Shown here: positions 20,819-24,434 of the stretch, one piece after another
Numbering within the stretch: the first letter of the stretch is position 1
How the letters are laid out: the number at the start of each line of letters is the position of its first letter
Origin: Oscillospiraceae bacterium
GTDB taxonomy: Bacteria > Bacillota > Clostridia > Oscillospirales > Ruminococcaceae
Length of the DNA stretch: 40,664 nucleotides
Reading direction: 5' to 3'
Assembly: GCA_024684395.1 (NCBI GenBank)
Contig: JAIKWY010000116.1
Coordinates: forward strand, 1 to 40,664
Notes under the pieces: model-generated
Seen by the model: only the letters and a program-made list of their open reading frames with translations
What the model was told of the DNA's origin: nothing
Databases searched by the model: none
Translations under genes and position numbers: made by a program

Positions 20819-21982
20819 ATGAAGATCCTTTACACCACCGGCGACAAGCTCTGGCTTGCGGAGAACGGCTCTGCCCGTGAGATCCCCTGCAAGCGGGTGC
20901 AGCAGTACCGGGATACCATACAGTCCATCCATGACAGCAAGCTCTGGAAAACCACCGGCACCGGTGCGCATTTTACCGGTGCGGCGGAGGATCCGGAGAT
21001 GGAGGAGATCTCCGCTCATTTCTGCGGGATCGCTCCGCATGGTACGGAATTTCTCTACACGCTCCAGCTCGATGCCAGCGGCGGCATGTACCGGCGGGAG
21101 CTGACCGCGGAGGCAGTTTTTGACGGGCATATCGTCTCGGGCAATGATGTCCGACTCGGTGCCATCGCAGCGCATGGGGACGATGTGGCGGCATGCATCC
21201 GCTATCCGGACGGGCGCTCGCACATCGGGCTGTATCATCTGCCGCAGAGCCGCTGCAACGAGATCACCGAGGGCGATTCCGTGGAGAATGCCCCGAGCTG
21301 GTCGCCGGACGGCAGAAAGCTCTACTTCTCCACCTGCGGCATCGGGCGCCGTGGCGAAGCCATCGCCCACTCCCCTGCCAGCGTGGCGGTCTATGATACC
21401 CAGACCCGGCAGATGGACATGCTCCTCGAAGATGAGCGCTATGACTATCTCTCCCCGCAGGTCAATGCAGCGGGCGACATGTTCGTTATCCGGCAGCCGT
21501 ATACACCGGAGGGAAATGCATCTGTTTCCATCGGACAGGTGTTTCTTGACGTGCTGCTGTTTCCCGTGCGCATCGTGAAGGCGATCGGCGGCTGGCTGAA
21601 TATCATGTCCATGCTCTACGGCGGCGAGCCGCTCCGTTCGGACAGTCCCCAGATGCACGAGAAATCAAAGCAGAAATCCCAGAAGGATCTGTTCTTCGAG
21701 GGAAATCTGATCCGTGCCAGGAAGAATCTCAAGGAGAACAGCCGCTCCGGCGAGGATTACCCCGGCATCCTCCCCCGCAGCCGTGTCCTGCTCTGCAAGA
21801 AAGCGGACGGCTCCGAGGAAGTCCTTGCCAAAGCCGTGCTCGACTACACCCTGACTGACGAGGGCATCGTCTTTTCCAACGGTGCGCATGTCCTGCTGCG
21901 CCGTCCGGACGGCAAGGTCGAAAAGCTCGCAAATGCGGAACTTGCTTCCAAAATTGTTGCGTTTTCTGACACGGATGCATAG
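20819..21982 (+). CDS. TolB/WD40-like beta-propeller protein of unknown function
   Basis: The 387-residue product has no signal peptide. Its middle has NAPSWSPDGRKLYFST, the typical blade motif of TolB-type propellers (S-P-D-G followed by a strand), and AVYDTQTRQMDMLL plus LSPQVNAAGDMFVI form the next blades. A hydrophobic stretch at about 238-262 (VFLDVLLFPVRIVKAIGGWL) may touch the membrane. A basic linker rich in Lys and Ser follows, then a last strand-rich part with VLLRRPDGKVEKLAN. This mix of propeller with an inserted amphipathic segment is unusual. The start has AGGAGG nine bases upstream. It is a single-gene unit just upstream of the putative large RNA. Confidence 0.85.
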   Translation: MKILYTTGDKLWLAENGSAREIPCKRVQQYRDTIQSIHDSKLWKTTGTGAHFTGAAEDPEMEEISAHFCGIAPHGTEFLYTLQLDASGGMYRRELTAEAVFDGHIVSGNDVRLGAIAAHGDDVAACIRYPDGRSHIGLYHLPQSRCNEITEGDSVENAPSWSPDGRKLYFSTCGIGRRGEAIAHSPASVAVYDTQTRQMDMLLEDERYDYLSPQVNAAGDMFVIRQPYTPEGNASVSIGQVFLDVLLFPVRIVKAIGGWLNIMSMLYGGEPLRSDSPQMHEKSKQKSQKDLFFEGNLIRARKNLKENSRSGEDYPGILPRSRVLLCKKADGSEEVLAKAVLDYTLTDEGIVFSNGAHVLLRRPDGKVEKLANAELASKIVAFSDTDA

Positions 21983-22071
21983 CCTGTCCGATGAAATGCA
22001 CAAAACCAATAGCCATCTGTTGCCAAATCTCACAAATCTCAAAAATACTTTCAAAAGTTTAAAGAAAACTA

Positions 22072-22100
22072 TTGACATTTCACAAGAAGTGTGCTATACT
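22072..22100 (+). promoter_or_regulatory. Sigma-A promoter of the putative large RNA
   Basis: TTGACA (22072-22077) and TATACT (22095-22100) are separated by 17 bases, with TGTGC directly before the -10. The predicted transcription start is near 22107. There is no ribosome site and open frame downstream that would explain such a strong promoter. Confidence 0.88.
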
Positions 22101-22106
22101 ATATAC

Positions 22107-22693
22107 AAGATAAAGATACTGCAGGACTTTATTGATAGACTTCCCGAAAGCGGAGGTCAAAAAATACAGGCGTATCTGCTTGCAGCCGGTGGGGTTGCTG
22201 AATATGCAGATCCCTGCAAGGGAGGGCGAAACCAATGGAGAAAATGGACGGATCACAGCAGCAGGCGGTTTCGCCGGTCGCAGTTAAGTGAATGAGGGTC
22301 AACTGATCTGACGGGATTGTCTCCCCGTCCGGTTCCCAGGGGCTTATGAGCCGTATCTCAATTCTGCGGTTAGTGATATTCGTCTGGTTCCGATAAGCTC
22401 GATTGTTTCAGTGCCGGCTTACCGGAAGAATGCTAAGGCAAAATTCCTGTGGCAGCGAAACTTTACATAGCAGGCATACAAGTTTTGAGTCTGGAGGTAC
22501 ACTCCAATGAGAAATTCTAAGTAGAAATCTCTGATGAAAGAGTTGTGATGCGTATGAAAAGCAACGCTATGAGGACTATCTTGAAAAATCCTTAGCAGAA
22601 AGGCGTGTGTGTCCAATGCACAACGTAAATAACTCCCGATCATGACAATTGAATAGCAAATTCGCTCCCGGATCCAATCTTCCGGGAGTTTTT
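22107..22693 (+). ncRNA. Putative large structured non-coding RNA of about 590 nt
   Basis: A strong promoter and a clear terminator bracket about 590 bases with no supported protein gene. Local helices are dense. A GNRA-capped hairpin GACTTCC/GGAGGTC (22138-22158) comes first. ATCTGC (22174-22179) with GCAGAT (22206-22211) encloses GCAGCC/GGTTGC (22182-22198). Then come TCCCT/AGGGA (22211-22223), and GGCGAAACC (22225-22233) with GGTTTCGCC (22267-22275), a perfect nine-pair stem. Further stems are CAGTT/AACTG, GACGGG/CCCGTC (22310-22329), CAATT/GATTG and TGGAG/CTCCA (22492-22506). The motif CCAATG appears three times, apparently mostly unpaired. Size and host type fit the large ornate RNAs ROOL and OLE, with ROOL the more likely guess; the class was not verified. 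RNase P RNA and tmRNA do not fit. Confidence 0.72.
22665..22693 (+). terminator. Terminator of the putative large RNA
   Basis: CTCCCGGA (22665-22672) and TCCGGGAG (22681-22688) form a perfect eight-pair stem with an eight-base loop, followed by five Ts and GCGC. Confidence 0.85.
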
Positions 22694-22912
22694 GCGCACG
22701 GAGCCCGTGCGGGCAGGTTGCTTCGCAGAGCGAAAATGCACTGCTTCGGTTATCGCTTGCCCCTTGCTTCGCAGAGGGGCAATGCTGTACATTCTAAGAC
22801 ATCGCATCCGTTCGGATGCTCTGATGCAGTTTTTCTGGGGTTTCAGACAATGATGCTGATGATCTATGTCTCCGGTTCCTCTTATTTCAGGAGGAACCGG
22901 AGACATTTTTTC
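22694..22912 (+). other. Hairpin-rich, non-coding tail region ending in a very strong terminator
   Basis: Between the first terminator and 22912 lie TTGCCCCT/AGGGGCAA (22757-22782), GCATCC-GTTC-GGATGC (22804-22819), and two copies of TTGCTTCGCAGAG (near 22719 and 22765). The region ends with ATGTCTCCGGTTCCTC (22866-22881) pairing perfectly with 22891-22906, 16 pairs, followed by six Ts. No protein gene is supported. It may be a 3' extension of the large RNA (about 805 nt in total) or a second small RNA. Confidence 0.55.
22866..22912 (+). terminator. Strong intrinsic terminator with a 16-pair stem
   Basis: A perfect 16-pair stem (22866-22881 with 22891-22906) around a nine-base loop is followed by a run of Ts. 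No plus-strand protein gene ends before it, so it most probably ends a non-coding transcript. Confidence 0.85.
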
Positions 22913-22972
22913 TGGTATTCAGGAGGAGAGAAACAGAAGCAGTATGCTGCGATGTGCTAAGAAAAAACAACG

Positions 22973-23002
22973 ATGCCCCCTTTGCGTAAGCATTGGGGGC
23001 AT
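22973..23002 (-). terminator. Terminator of the HD-GYP operon
   Basis: ATGCCCCC (22973-22980) pairs with GGGGGCAT (22995-23002). Read on the minus strand the stem is followed by CGTTGTTTTTTC. It lies 46 bases past the stop codon of the HD-GYP gene. Confidence 0.82.
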
Positions 23003-23048
23003 ACCGTTCTCCTCGAAGCAGGATGGGGGCAGCGTCACGCTGCCGGGC

Positions 23049-24434
23049 TCACTCATGAAGGGTGTAGGCGGTGTCTTCGTTGATGATGGCGATCATCATG
23101 CGGGCGACTTCGGGATCGAACTGGGTGCCGCTATTCTTTTCGATCTCCTCTTTGACCTTGTTCTGGGCGAGATAGTTTCTGTAGCTGCGGTTGGATGTCA
23201 TGGCGTCATAGCTGTCCGCAACGGCGATGATCCGTGCAAGCAGCGGGATCTCCTCGCCTGCCTTGCCGTCCGGGTAGCCCTTGCCGTCATAGCGCTCGTG
23301 GTGCCATCTTGCGCCGATCGCCAGGTCAGGACGGCTGTGTACTTCGGAGAGGATCTCATAACCGATCTCCGGATGTGTCCGGATGAGGCTGTATTCCTCG
23401 TCAGAGAGCTTGGTCGGGCTGTTGATGATCGAGCTGGGAACGCCGATCTTGCCGAGGTCATGCAGAAGACCATAGTAATACACATCCTCGCATTCCTTCT
23501 CAGAGAGCCCCATTTTCTCGGCGATCATCCGGGAATACTTCGCCACACGGACGGAATGGCCACGGGTATACTTGTCCTTCGCATCTATGGTGTGTGCCAG
23601 CGCTTCCATCATCTCCACGGCAAGCGTCTTGACCTCGTCATGCGCCCGCTTGGTCTCGTTCATGTACATGATATTCCGGGCGATGAGGGAAAAGGCGCCC
23701 AGCAGCACGATCAGGATAAACAGATCCGACACATACAGGATCAGCGGATCCAGCGAAAAATAGGATCGGTAGCTTATGAAGAGCTCTTTGAACTGATCTT
23801 CGGCTTCTTCACTGAGCTTATTCAGCGTCTTCAGGAATACAAAGGTCTCATCCACTGCCTCCAGTACGATCGCTGTCTGGTACATGCCAAAGAACAGACT
23901 GACCGTCTTATAGAGGAACACGATCACCGGCAGCGTGACAAACAGCTTGGGATTCGTAATCTGTTTTTCCCGGGCGATCCGGATCAGTTGGCGGACTGCC
24001 AGGAAATAGAATGCAATGCTCAGCAGGATGGTGCAGATGATGGGAACTGCGGGATAGTCAGTGCTGAACACCATCGTTATGCCCGGTACCAGCATGGTGC
24101 TGCACAGGTACAGAAACAGCGCAACAGAGCGGTTTATGGCATGAACGATCTTGATGTACAGGAGCAGGAACAGGATCTGGAAGGCGACCAGCAGCAAGGT
24201 GACTATGGTGCAGTACAGCAGCAAGCTTGAAACACTGTCGTCGGAACCGCAGACTGCCTCACCAATGATGGCTGAGAGCAGATGCGCCGTTGAAGGAGAT
24301 AGCAGCAGCAGCAGGATTGCTTTATAGAACGGGAGCTTTTCAAAGAAGCATTTCTTTGTCACAAACACAAAGAAACCTGCTTCTGCAACATACAGCATGA
24401 CCAGAATAATGTTGGTGATGTTGAAATCAATCAT
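23049..24434 (-). CDS. Membrane-bound HD-GYP domain protein (probable cyclic-di-GMP phosphodiesterase)
   Basis: The 461-residue protein has about seven membrane helices in its first 250 residues. A linker with an acidic-helix pattern follows, and then a C-terminal HD-GYP domain (about 270-445). Visible motifs are HTIDAKDKYTRGHSVRVAKY, LLHDLGKIGVPSSII with the HD pair, IRTHPEIGYEIL, and HHERYDGKGYPDG, which carries the GYP signature. Further on is RIIAVADSYDAMTSNRSYR. All metal ligands expected for the family are present, so it should be active on cyclic-di-GMP or a related dinucleotide. The start follows AGGAGGTATGCC. It ends a five-gene minus-strand run that contains rarA. No diguanylate cyclase (GGDEF) gene is in the window. 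Confidence 0.92.
   Translation of the reverse strand: MIDFNITNIILVMLYVAEAGFFVFVTKKCFFEKLPFYKAILLLLLSPSTAHLLSAIIGEAVCGSDDSVSSLLLYCTIVTLLLVAFQILFLLLYIKIVHAINRSVALFLYLCSTMLVPGITMVFSTDYPAVPIICTILLSIAFYFLAVRQLIRIAREKQITNPKLFVTLPVIVFLYKTVSLFFGMYQTAIVLEAVDETFVFLKTLNKLSEEAEDQFKELFISYRSYFSLDPLILYVSDLFILIVLLGAFSLIARNIMYMNETKRAHDEVKTLAVEMMEALAHTIDAKDKYTRGHSVRVAKYSRMIAEKMGLSEKECEDVYYYGLLHDLGKIGVPSSIINSPTKLSDEEYSLIRTHPEIGYEILSEVHSRPDLAIGARWHHERYDGKGYPDGKAGEEIPLLARIIAVADSYDAMTSNRSYRNYLAQNKVKEEIEKNSGTQFDPEVARMMIAIINEDTAYTLHE

Follow-up and report, generated by a model that had tools for sequence, protein, structure and literature searches.

A candidate new class of structured bacterial RNA carrying a series of Shine-Dalgarno-supported short reading frames

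Introduction

What is encoded in the gap of about 1 kb that separates a gene with a PD40 match (20819-21982) from an HD-domain gene on the minus strand (23049-24434)? The gap lies in a 40,664-nt stretch of DNA from an Oscillospiraceae bacterium (contig JAIKWY010000116.1), the whole of which is called the window below. An earlier note, made from the letters alone, had proposed that it holds a large structured non-coding RNA, comparable in size to ROOL or OLE or possibly of a new class. Large structured RNA classes are few in bacteria, and several have no known function. The proposal of a large stand-alone structured RNA gene proved sound: the RNA is conserved in relatives, has covarying helices and is bounded by a promoter and a terminator (Table 1).

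Results

Promoter and terminator of the RNA gene

The consensus promoter named in the earlier note scores 11 out of 12 and has a TG ahead of the -10 box. A scan of the 2-kb region returned 2 promoter-like sites versus 1.4 +- 1.1 in shuffled sequences; the count being near chance in a single sequence, it is conservation alone that makes the promoter convincing, both the -35 and the -10 boxes being kept in position in all 30 loci excised from genomes of the window's genus. Transcription would start near 22107. The promoter motif (TTGACAT..CACAA..TGTGCTATACT) also precedes another open frame of the same genome (G000:C22:27186-27223, locus L003), and short matches to it are scattered in the genomes of relatives; the RNA's promoter may therefore be of a shared, strong type.

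The terminator, likewise foreseen, consists of a stem (22665-22672 with 22681-22688) followed by a T-run. The stem is found in 25/25 aligned RNAs, and its loop-side pairs covary. A consensus terminator scanner listed only the interval 22866-22906 and not this stem. The listed interval, which separates the RNA gene from the HD-domain gene, forms a terminator-like hairpin of 18 pairs and is perhaps the terminator of the latter gene or of both strands. A segment that begins at the T-run (22689-22720, 32 bases) is repeated with 91% identity at G000:C212:29412-29443 and looks by eye like a piece of a GC-rich palindromic repeat.

No tRNA was found within the window. Some of the genus loci have the PD40 gene and a rarA/MgsA-type ATPase gene as recurring neighbours of the RNA, and the downstream genes differ among the loci read.

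Table 1. Coordinates of the RNA gene and of its features in the window.
Feature	Position	Strand	Description	Basis
Promoter	22072-22100	+	Sigma-70 type, TTGACA-17-TATACT, extended -10	Promoter scan; in place in 30/30 genus loci
RNA gene	22101-22693	+	About 590 nt	25-sequence alignment A4; covariation
Helix P1	22139-22157	+	Hairpin, 22139-22144 with 22152-22157	All six pairs with double-sided changes
Module 1	22219-22291	+	SD AGGGAGG 22219-22225; ORF1 22235-22291, MEKMDGSQQQAVSPVAVK	SD duplex -12.3 kcal/mol
Helix H1	22225-22275	+	22225-22233 with 22267-22275; encloses ORF1 start	100% of cells paired
Helix H2	22278-22369	+	22278-22283 with 22364-22369	98.7% paired; two pairs with double-sided changes
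Hairpin inside H2	22310-22329	+	GACGGG/CCCGTC	Read by eye
Helix H3	22388-22427	+	22388-22392 with 22423-22427; 22395-22398 with 22417-22420	8/9 pairs with double-sided changes
Proposed pseudoknot	22405-22461	+	GUUUC 22405-22409 with GAAAC 22457-22461; GCC 22413-22415 with GGC 22451-22453	
Module 2	22493-22524	+	GGAGG-UACA-CUCC hairpin; 5-codon ORF 22507-22524, MRNSK	Covariation; SD scan
Module 3	22536-22595	+	GAAAG..GUGAUGC; ORF2 22554-22595, MKSNAMRTILKNP	SD duplex -10.4 kcal/mol
Module 4	22597-22645	+	AGAAAGG..GUCCAAUG; ORF3 22616-22645, MHNVNNSRS	SD duplex -11.2 kcal/mol
Conserved 3' element	22645-22655	+	ACAATTGAATA	Degenerate form in 25/25 genus and 9/17 outside RNAs
Terminator	22665-22693	+	Intrinsic	97.3% of cells paired; two pairs changed on both sides

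Distribution in the genus of the window

A blastn-type search (E <= 0.001) gave matches in 37 of 61 genomes, some of them to promoter or terminator stretches only; two of the 37 genomes, G045 and G060, lie outside the genus and have short promoter matches. R1, a covariance model of the ORF1 domain, had a single match per genome (E <= 0.01) in 33 of the 38 genus genomes, the weakest (G022) at E 0.005. All 12 genus genomes with >=90% completeness and <=5% contamination have the match; the five genomes without it are 72-84% complete.

Scanning genome contigs with an ORF1 pattern yielded 31 stretches, 25 of which are labelled, for example, Ruminococcus sp., Oscillospiraceae, Clostridia or Clostridiales; ruminant rumen and gut are the source of several of these 25 records. 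The other six (L039, L041, L050, L051, L052 and L063, from Streptomyces, Methylobacterium, Sulfotelmatobacter, Lysobacteraceae, Thiocystis and a Betaproteobacterium) were taken as chance, judged by organism alone. The gap limit of the pattern was one base short of the window's own ORF1, so that the window's genome was missed and the scans of genome and viral contigs undercount.

Alignment A4, used below, holds 25 RNAs from the 33 genomes with a match. It omits L005, L020, L024, L031 and L032, which are partial, unusually long or carry an insertion, as well as the RNAs of G022, G031 and G255. In L032 (genome G014) a RAGATH-18 RNA (RF03064; 74.4 bits, E 1e-13; L032:1826-1897) is inserted inside the RNA gene, a short distance ahead of the ORF1 start.

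A covarying fold

The single-sequence fold of the window RNA surpasses shuffles only mildly, with a z-score of -2.08 and 2 of 100 shuffles folding equally well. RNAalifold, applied to the 25-sequence alignment, proposed 41 pairs, 12 of them with double-sided changes. Two three-pair helices were dropped from this set (columns 23-25/615-617 and 387-389/410-412, the latter in conflict with the preferred pairing), and hairpin P1 and the pseudoknot were added, so that 49 pairs in nine helices were scored. Across the 25 RNAs, 94.8% of the cells are paired, and 18 pairs and 84 cells are changed on both sides, versus 89.3%, 11.1 pairs and 29.1 +- 5.7 cells in shuffled alignments; none of 500 shuffles was as high on all five measures, a contrast that kinship of the sequences inflates. 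Sliding the partners by 1-3 columns lowered pairing to 32-52%, in a test that favours structures derived, as here, from the same alignment. Covariation strongly supports H2, H3, the terminator and, in the sequences that have it, P1.

Several of the stems that the note had listed are present. The hairpin at 22138-22158 (P1) is conserved in the genus, only in part of the relatives; 78.3% of its cells are paired, and 5/25 sequences have no letters there. The nine-pair stem (H1) is conserved throughout the genus, where its changes are on one side only. At GACGGG/CCCGTC relatives carry other letters that pair (CTGCCG/CGGCAG in L027, CAGCCG/CGGCTG in L028), as judged by eye because the aligner left this hairpin out of register. 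The pseudoknot can pair in 25/25 sequences but is nearly invariant, and is therefore without covariation support and unproved. Finally, a degenerate form of ACAATTGAATA, near the 3' end, is present in 25/25 genus RNAs and in 9/17 RNAs from other genera (see below).

GCGAAAC does occur twice and CCAATG three times, as the earlier note stated. Its suggestion that the two GCGAAAC copies exchange a partner in a switch is not supported: in the pairings scored, GGUUUCG is the partner of the first copy and GUUUC 22405-22409 that of the second (as GAAAC), each in 25/25 RNAs, and H1 differs in other genera. The second pairing is the nearly invariant one just described.

Serial start modules

The gap had been described as free of protein genes. 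Ordinary genes are indeed absent; inside the RNA, however, are four short ORFs with good Shine-Dalgarno (SD) sites. These came from a scan for ATG or GTG behind an anti-SD duplex of <= -8 kcal/mol, in which a generic anti-SD sequence was used because the 16S 3' end was not found in this genome. The window RNA has exactly four SD-supported starts, with ORFs of 18, 5, 13 and 9 codons (Table 1), and the three CCAATG repeats are start contexts of short ORFs behind SD sequences. Four starts, versus 1.55 +- 1.35 in shuffles (maximum 6 in 60), are unremarkable for the window RNA alone; only pooled sets stand out. When the scan, which at first took 10 of the 25 genus RNAs, was pooled over all 25, it found 110 SD-supported starts versus 30.5 +- 4.7 (maximum 40) in 40 dinucleotide shuffles, overlapping starts being counted in RNAs and shuffles alike. 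ORFs longer than 25 codons follow 3 of the 110 starts, versus 20% in shuffles. The second ORF (module 2) has 3-9 codons in 25/25 RNAs and its peptide is not conserved; ORF3 (module 4) has 2-13 codons in 25/25 and keeps its start context, not its peptide.

Coding tests on ORF1 and ORF2

ORF2 measures 36, 39 or 42 nt, and nothing else, in 25/25 RNAs (for L026 by a hand-set stop rule), versus single-base variation in most neighbouring intervals. With indel events placed on a tree built without the ORF columns, 6 of the 7 events that fall in ORF1 and ORF2 have lengths divisible by three, versus 34 of 117 in ten control intervals (p about 0.003, calculated by hand from the control rate). ORF1 was measured here from its start to its CGGTTTCG, which leaves outside a single base inserted at the stop in L016; with that event the count is 6 of 8. 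A shift of 2 nt puts the ORF1 of L010 out of frame. L020 (genome G019) has an ORF1 four or five codons longer (MESYSFILADQQVSAVSPVAVK, 22 codons) that keeps the C-terminus of the family.

Start and stop codons turn over: 26 ATG and 3 GTG starts, and 24 TGA, 3 TAG and 2 TAA stops, among 29 ORF1 sequences; 24 ATG and 1 GTG starts, and 20 TAG and 5 TAA stops, among 25 ORF2 sequences. The predicted net charge is -2 to 0 for ORF1 in 29/29 and +1 to +5 for ORF2 in 25/25. Clear purifying selection at the amino-acid level is not seen in the dN/dS of either frame: 1.16 for ORF1 (27 of the 29 sequences, L010 and L020 being omitted), a value as low in 148 of 200 column shuffles, and 0.57 for ORF2, as low in 28 of 200. 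ORF1 is heavily constrained as RNA, so that dN/dS has little power there; the coding case is not helped by it. From CCAATG as start contexts, the enrichment of starts over shuffles and the frame-keeping indels, the label "non-coding" given to this RNA is probably wrong.

Diverged relatives in other genera

Of 396 genomes of the family, 37 matched model R1 at E <= 0.1, and the window's genus accounts for 8 of the 37; in the order R1 matched 22 of 295 genomes. A further model, R3, matched 57 of 394 genomes of the order at E <= 0.05; its closing bracket was three columns off, so that it relied mainly on sequence, and the H1 stem was scored separately afterwards. Outside the genus the matches to R1 and R3 were largely noise and were sorted by eye. 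Among 391 genomes of the class, R3 gave 4 matches at E <= 0.001, all inside the order and two of them gene starts (L141, L142); the lack of R3 matches in the class beyond the order is a weak absence, because several accepted relatives score only 1e-4 to 6e-4. Model R2, of the middle domain, matched the window's genus only (3 genomes) among 197 genomes of the family.

From these weak matches 19 likely relatives in eight further genera and two families were accepted by eye on three features: the hairpin-bearing ORF1 module, a first ORF that is short and not a gene, and a promoter-like stretch upstream. They belong to six genera of the same family (L101 and L103; L104 and L109; L112; L128; L131; and a large group in one genus, L106, L114, L126, L129, L130, L133, L134, L136 and L139) and to two genera of another family (L113 and L127; L138). 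Having been found with ORF1-domain models, all have the ORF1 module by construction. Judged by eye to be ordinary gene starts or unrelated were L102, L105, L107, L108, L110, L111, L115, L117, L118, L120, L125, L132, L137, L140-L142, L144, L145 and L147. L143 (G664) and L135 (G722) come from other families of the order, and in both a module-like start opens an ORF of 30 codons; they are doubtful and uncounted. The count also leaves out L116, L119, L146, L148-L150 and entries without a locus.

The 16 outside RNAs whose two ends could be placed are 345-1049 nt long (L131, L136 and L130 are excluded, the last lacking its 5' end and starting downstream of the promoter). A 6S RNA lies nearby at or above the gathering score in nine of the 19 loci (L101, L103, L112, L113, L126, L127, L129, L133 and L138, in two families); six more have weaker matches, and four loci, of 2.5-3.1 kb, have none. 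A small acidic gene faces the RNA in 14 of the 16 loci listed, being absent among the ORFs listed for L113 and L138, and it is of the DUF1292 type in 5/5 cases tested. In most of the nine loci with a gathering-score 6S match, the DUF1292-type gene stands between 6S and the RNA. This place is not common to the window's genus. Place and module thus tie the outside RNAs to one another; the ORF1 module, the 3' element (9/17) and the layout tie them to the window RNA.

Of the 19 outside RNAs 17 were scanned for starts, L131 (masked bases) and L136 (no clear end) being omitted. They hold 76 SD-supported starts versus 23.7 +- 5.5 in shuffles (maximum 39). None of the 76 ORFs exceeds 25 codons, versus 16% in shuffles, and one has no stop before the end of the RNA; 20 have three codons or fewer, and start-stop, M-A-stop and M-K-stop ORFs are among those found. 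GAGTCC occurs 34 times in the 17 RNAs, versus 1.8 +- 1.2 expected; in 27 of these modules it is directly followed by ATG or GTG, and the other seven have no start codon yet are complementary to the anti-SD. The genus RNAs have no GAGTCC (0 versus 3.1 +- 1.8 expected), so that the two sets of modules are alike in kind and not in letters. L113 and L138 have one SD-supported start each, in the first module, no more than shuffles. Across genera the length of the first ORF stays within 15-23 codons, though the sequence after its start has diverged, and a basic short ORF of about 9-15 codons can be picked by eye in most outside RNAs.

In the other genera H1, the stem of the first GCGAAAC copy, reads GCGAG/CUCGU. 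In a cross-genus alignment of 8 outside and 10 genus sequences, five H1 pairs are 97.8% paired, and one of them is G-C in 8/8 outside sequences and A-U in 9/10 genus sequences. The number of double-change cells exceeds that of all 500 shuffles, and the number of such pairs (1) was matched in 341 of 500. This change tracks the split between the genera and may be one event.

Tests against known RNA classes

Rfam release 15 gave no match in the window at the gathering score. Membership in ROOL, OLE or GOLLD, considered in the earlier note, finds no support in the searches: 16 matches over 21980-23050 at E <= 10 and 8 matches over 10 homologous loci at E <= 1 include none of the three. The low-threshold matches are mainly animal or plant microRNAs on the hairpin at 22866-22906; a match to rliB (E 0.13) lies on the opposite strand. 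Neither 50,697 phage records nor viral contigs gave a match, the latter being searched with the ORF1 pattern, which also misses the window's own copy. ARAGORN found no tmRNA in the window or in nine homologous loci. 6S RNA (RF00013) has no match in the window and is a separate, neighbouring gene in relatives. A hammerhead ribozyme, a CsrB-type GGA sponge and a type I toxin-antitoxin system were considered and set aside on general grounds.

The RNA is not described in the open-licence literature searched, and no RNA is known to us in which start modules are strung along a conserved scaffold. On these comparisons, which yielded no Rfam match to a large-RNA class and no phage, viral or literature counterpart, the RNA would form a new class.

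Discussion

In the reading that we hold to be somewhat better than even, the RNA, which is chromosomal and stands alone, represents a new structured class and doubles as a message, with ribosomes acting at serial mini-ORFs and two probable micropeptides. Its conservation, structure, module enrichment and frame keeping have computational support; transcription, ribosome binding, translation and any function we infer. A strong promoter of its own would yield an RNA of 0.35-1.05 kb whose fold presents serial ribosome-binding modules, each a complement of the 16S 3' end with an AUG or GUG close behind it that opens a very short ORF. The ORF1 module would probably yield a micropeptide of 15-23 residues, which in the window's genus is neutral or slightly acidic, and the later, basic ORF2 one of 11-13 residues in the genus. 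The other ORFs, often of 1-9 codons and not conserved in sequence, would more likely bring ribosomes to set places, where these could set the stability or the folding of the RNA; alternatively, initiating ribosomes could be held.

ORF1 is conserved largely at the nucleotide level and within stem H1, and its dN/dS carries no purifying signal. Together with the modules that have no start codon, this would suit a structured non-coding RNA whose short ORFs are by-products of motifs combining SD-like purines with AUG. We consider this unlikely, though a serious contender, in view of the module enrichment, the frame-keeping indels, the turnover of ATG/GTG starts and of stops, the constant sign of the charges, and a first ORF of 15-23 codons in all genera despite diverged sequence after the start. 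The modules lacking a start codon, and those in which a stop follows the start, would equally suit a ribosome decoy, in which many 16S-complementary sites capture 30S subunits or initiating ribosomes and the peptides are immaterial. The repeated modules, with anti-SD duplexes of about -8 to -17 kcal/mol, and the unconserved peptides of the second and fourth ORFs in the genus point the same way. Against a decoy, the frame and charge of ORF1 and ORF2 are kept, and L113 and L138, with one module each by the scan, would make poor decoys; we rate it as improbable as the by-product explanation.

That all four window modules combine an SD sequence and a start, between a promoter and a terminator, would be expected of an ordinary polycistronic messenger for small peptides in which structure serves only translation or stability. 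Beyond the ORFs, however, there are conserved blocks and helices with covariation (most of H2, H3 and ACAATTGAATA). They exceed what such a messenger needs, which makes this account rather more doubtful still. Size and complexity resemble those of prophage RNAs such as ROOL and GOLLD, and short ORFs are typical of attenuators. Yet a leader or attenuator of a neighbouring gene would hardly have an intrinsic terminator stem in 25/25 RNAs and downstream genes that differ among the loci read; a prophage RNA is at odds with the searches of Rfam, phages and viral contigs, and both are at odds with the chromosomal neighbours common to loci in other genera. A leader or prophage RNA is accordingly very improbable. 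The combined message and structured RNA described above is the reading retained here.

Covariation, a single copy per genome, presence in 12/12 high-quality genus genomes and likely orthologues elsewhere indicate that the RNA probably matters to the cell. Serial mini-ORFs, start-stop ones included, blur the line between message and structured RNA; if translation is confirmed, the RNA adds micropeptides so small, at roughly 10-20 residues, that ordinary annotation overlooks them. For some gut and rumen bacteria, the RNA is suggested to be a structured molecule as well as a source of tiny peptides or a dock for ribosomes. A bolder and quite doubtful extension is that of a ribosome-docking array, present across at least two families of one order, in which serial start-stop modules complementary to 16S rRNA would sit on a folded scaffold and hold or count initiating ribosomes, two of them releasing micropeptides that report on translation or act on it. 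6S RNA is a regulator of RNA polymerase. Were the docking array true, its place beside 6S in most of the other genera would make it a translation counterpart of 6S.

Several known systems share some of these properties. In dual-function RNAs, the regulatory activity of the RNA itself is usually base pairing with targets, and RNAIII carries one small ORF. ROOL, GOLLD and OLE form homo-oligomeric RNA-only complexes. To our knowledge, no mini-ORF array is known for the raiA-motif RNA. The window RNA would work somewhat in the manner of a dual-function RNA. Staphylococcus RNAIII and Vibrio VcdRP, described as dual-function RNAs (PMC11237564, PMC8672173), resemble it in joining a regulatory-size RNA gene to a small ORF; VcdRP has one small ORF and both have targets, whereas the window RNA has four modules and its relatives up to eight SD-supported starts, with ORFs down to start-stop. 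ROOL and GOLLD are prophage and phage RNAs often near tRNA islands; with OLE, they share with the window RNA a length of several hundred nt to about 1 kb, an elaborate fold and a probable pseudoknot (PMC12286853). Unlike them, the window RNA is without an Rfam match, is chromosomal and carries a mini-ORF array. The raiA-motif RNA (ModT), reported from >2,500 species (PMC11706538), is likewise a structured RNA of Bacillota; the window RNA differs in having no Rfam match.

Upstream-ORF motifs such as odc1 also place a conserved short-peptide start inside a structured RNA; odc1 precedes a main ORF that it may control (PMC8632094), whereas the window RNA has its own terminator. Comparable with the smallest ORFs is a two-codon minigene of the axe-txe operon, which is reported to act in cis, possibly via mRNA stability (PMC8708949). 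It shares with them the layout of a start, one or two codons and a stop, but is single and inside an operon where the present ones form a series on a stand-alone RNA. The minigene case suggests that elements of this kind can be active even when the peptide they encode is of no use (PMC8708949).
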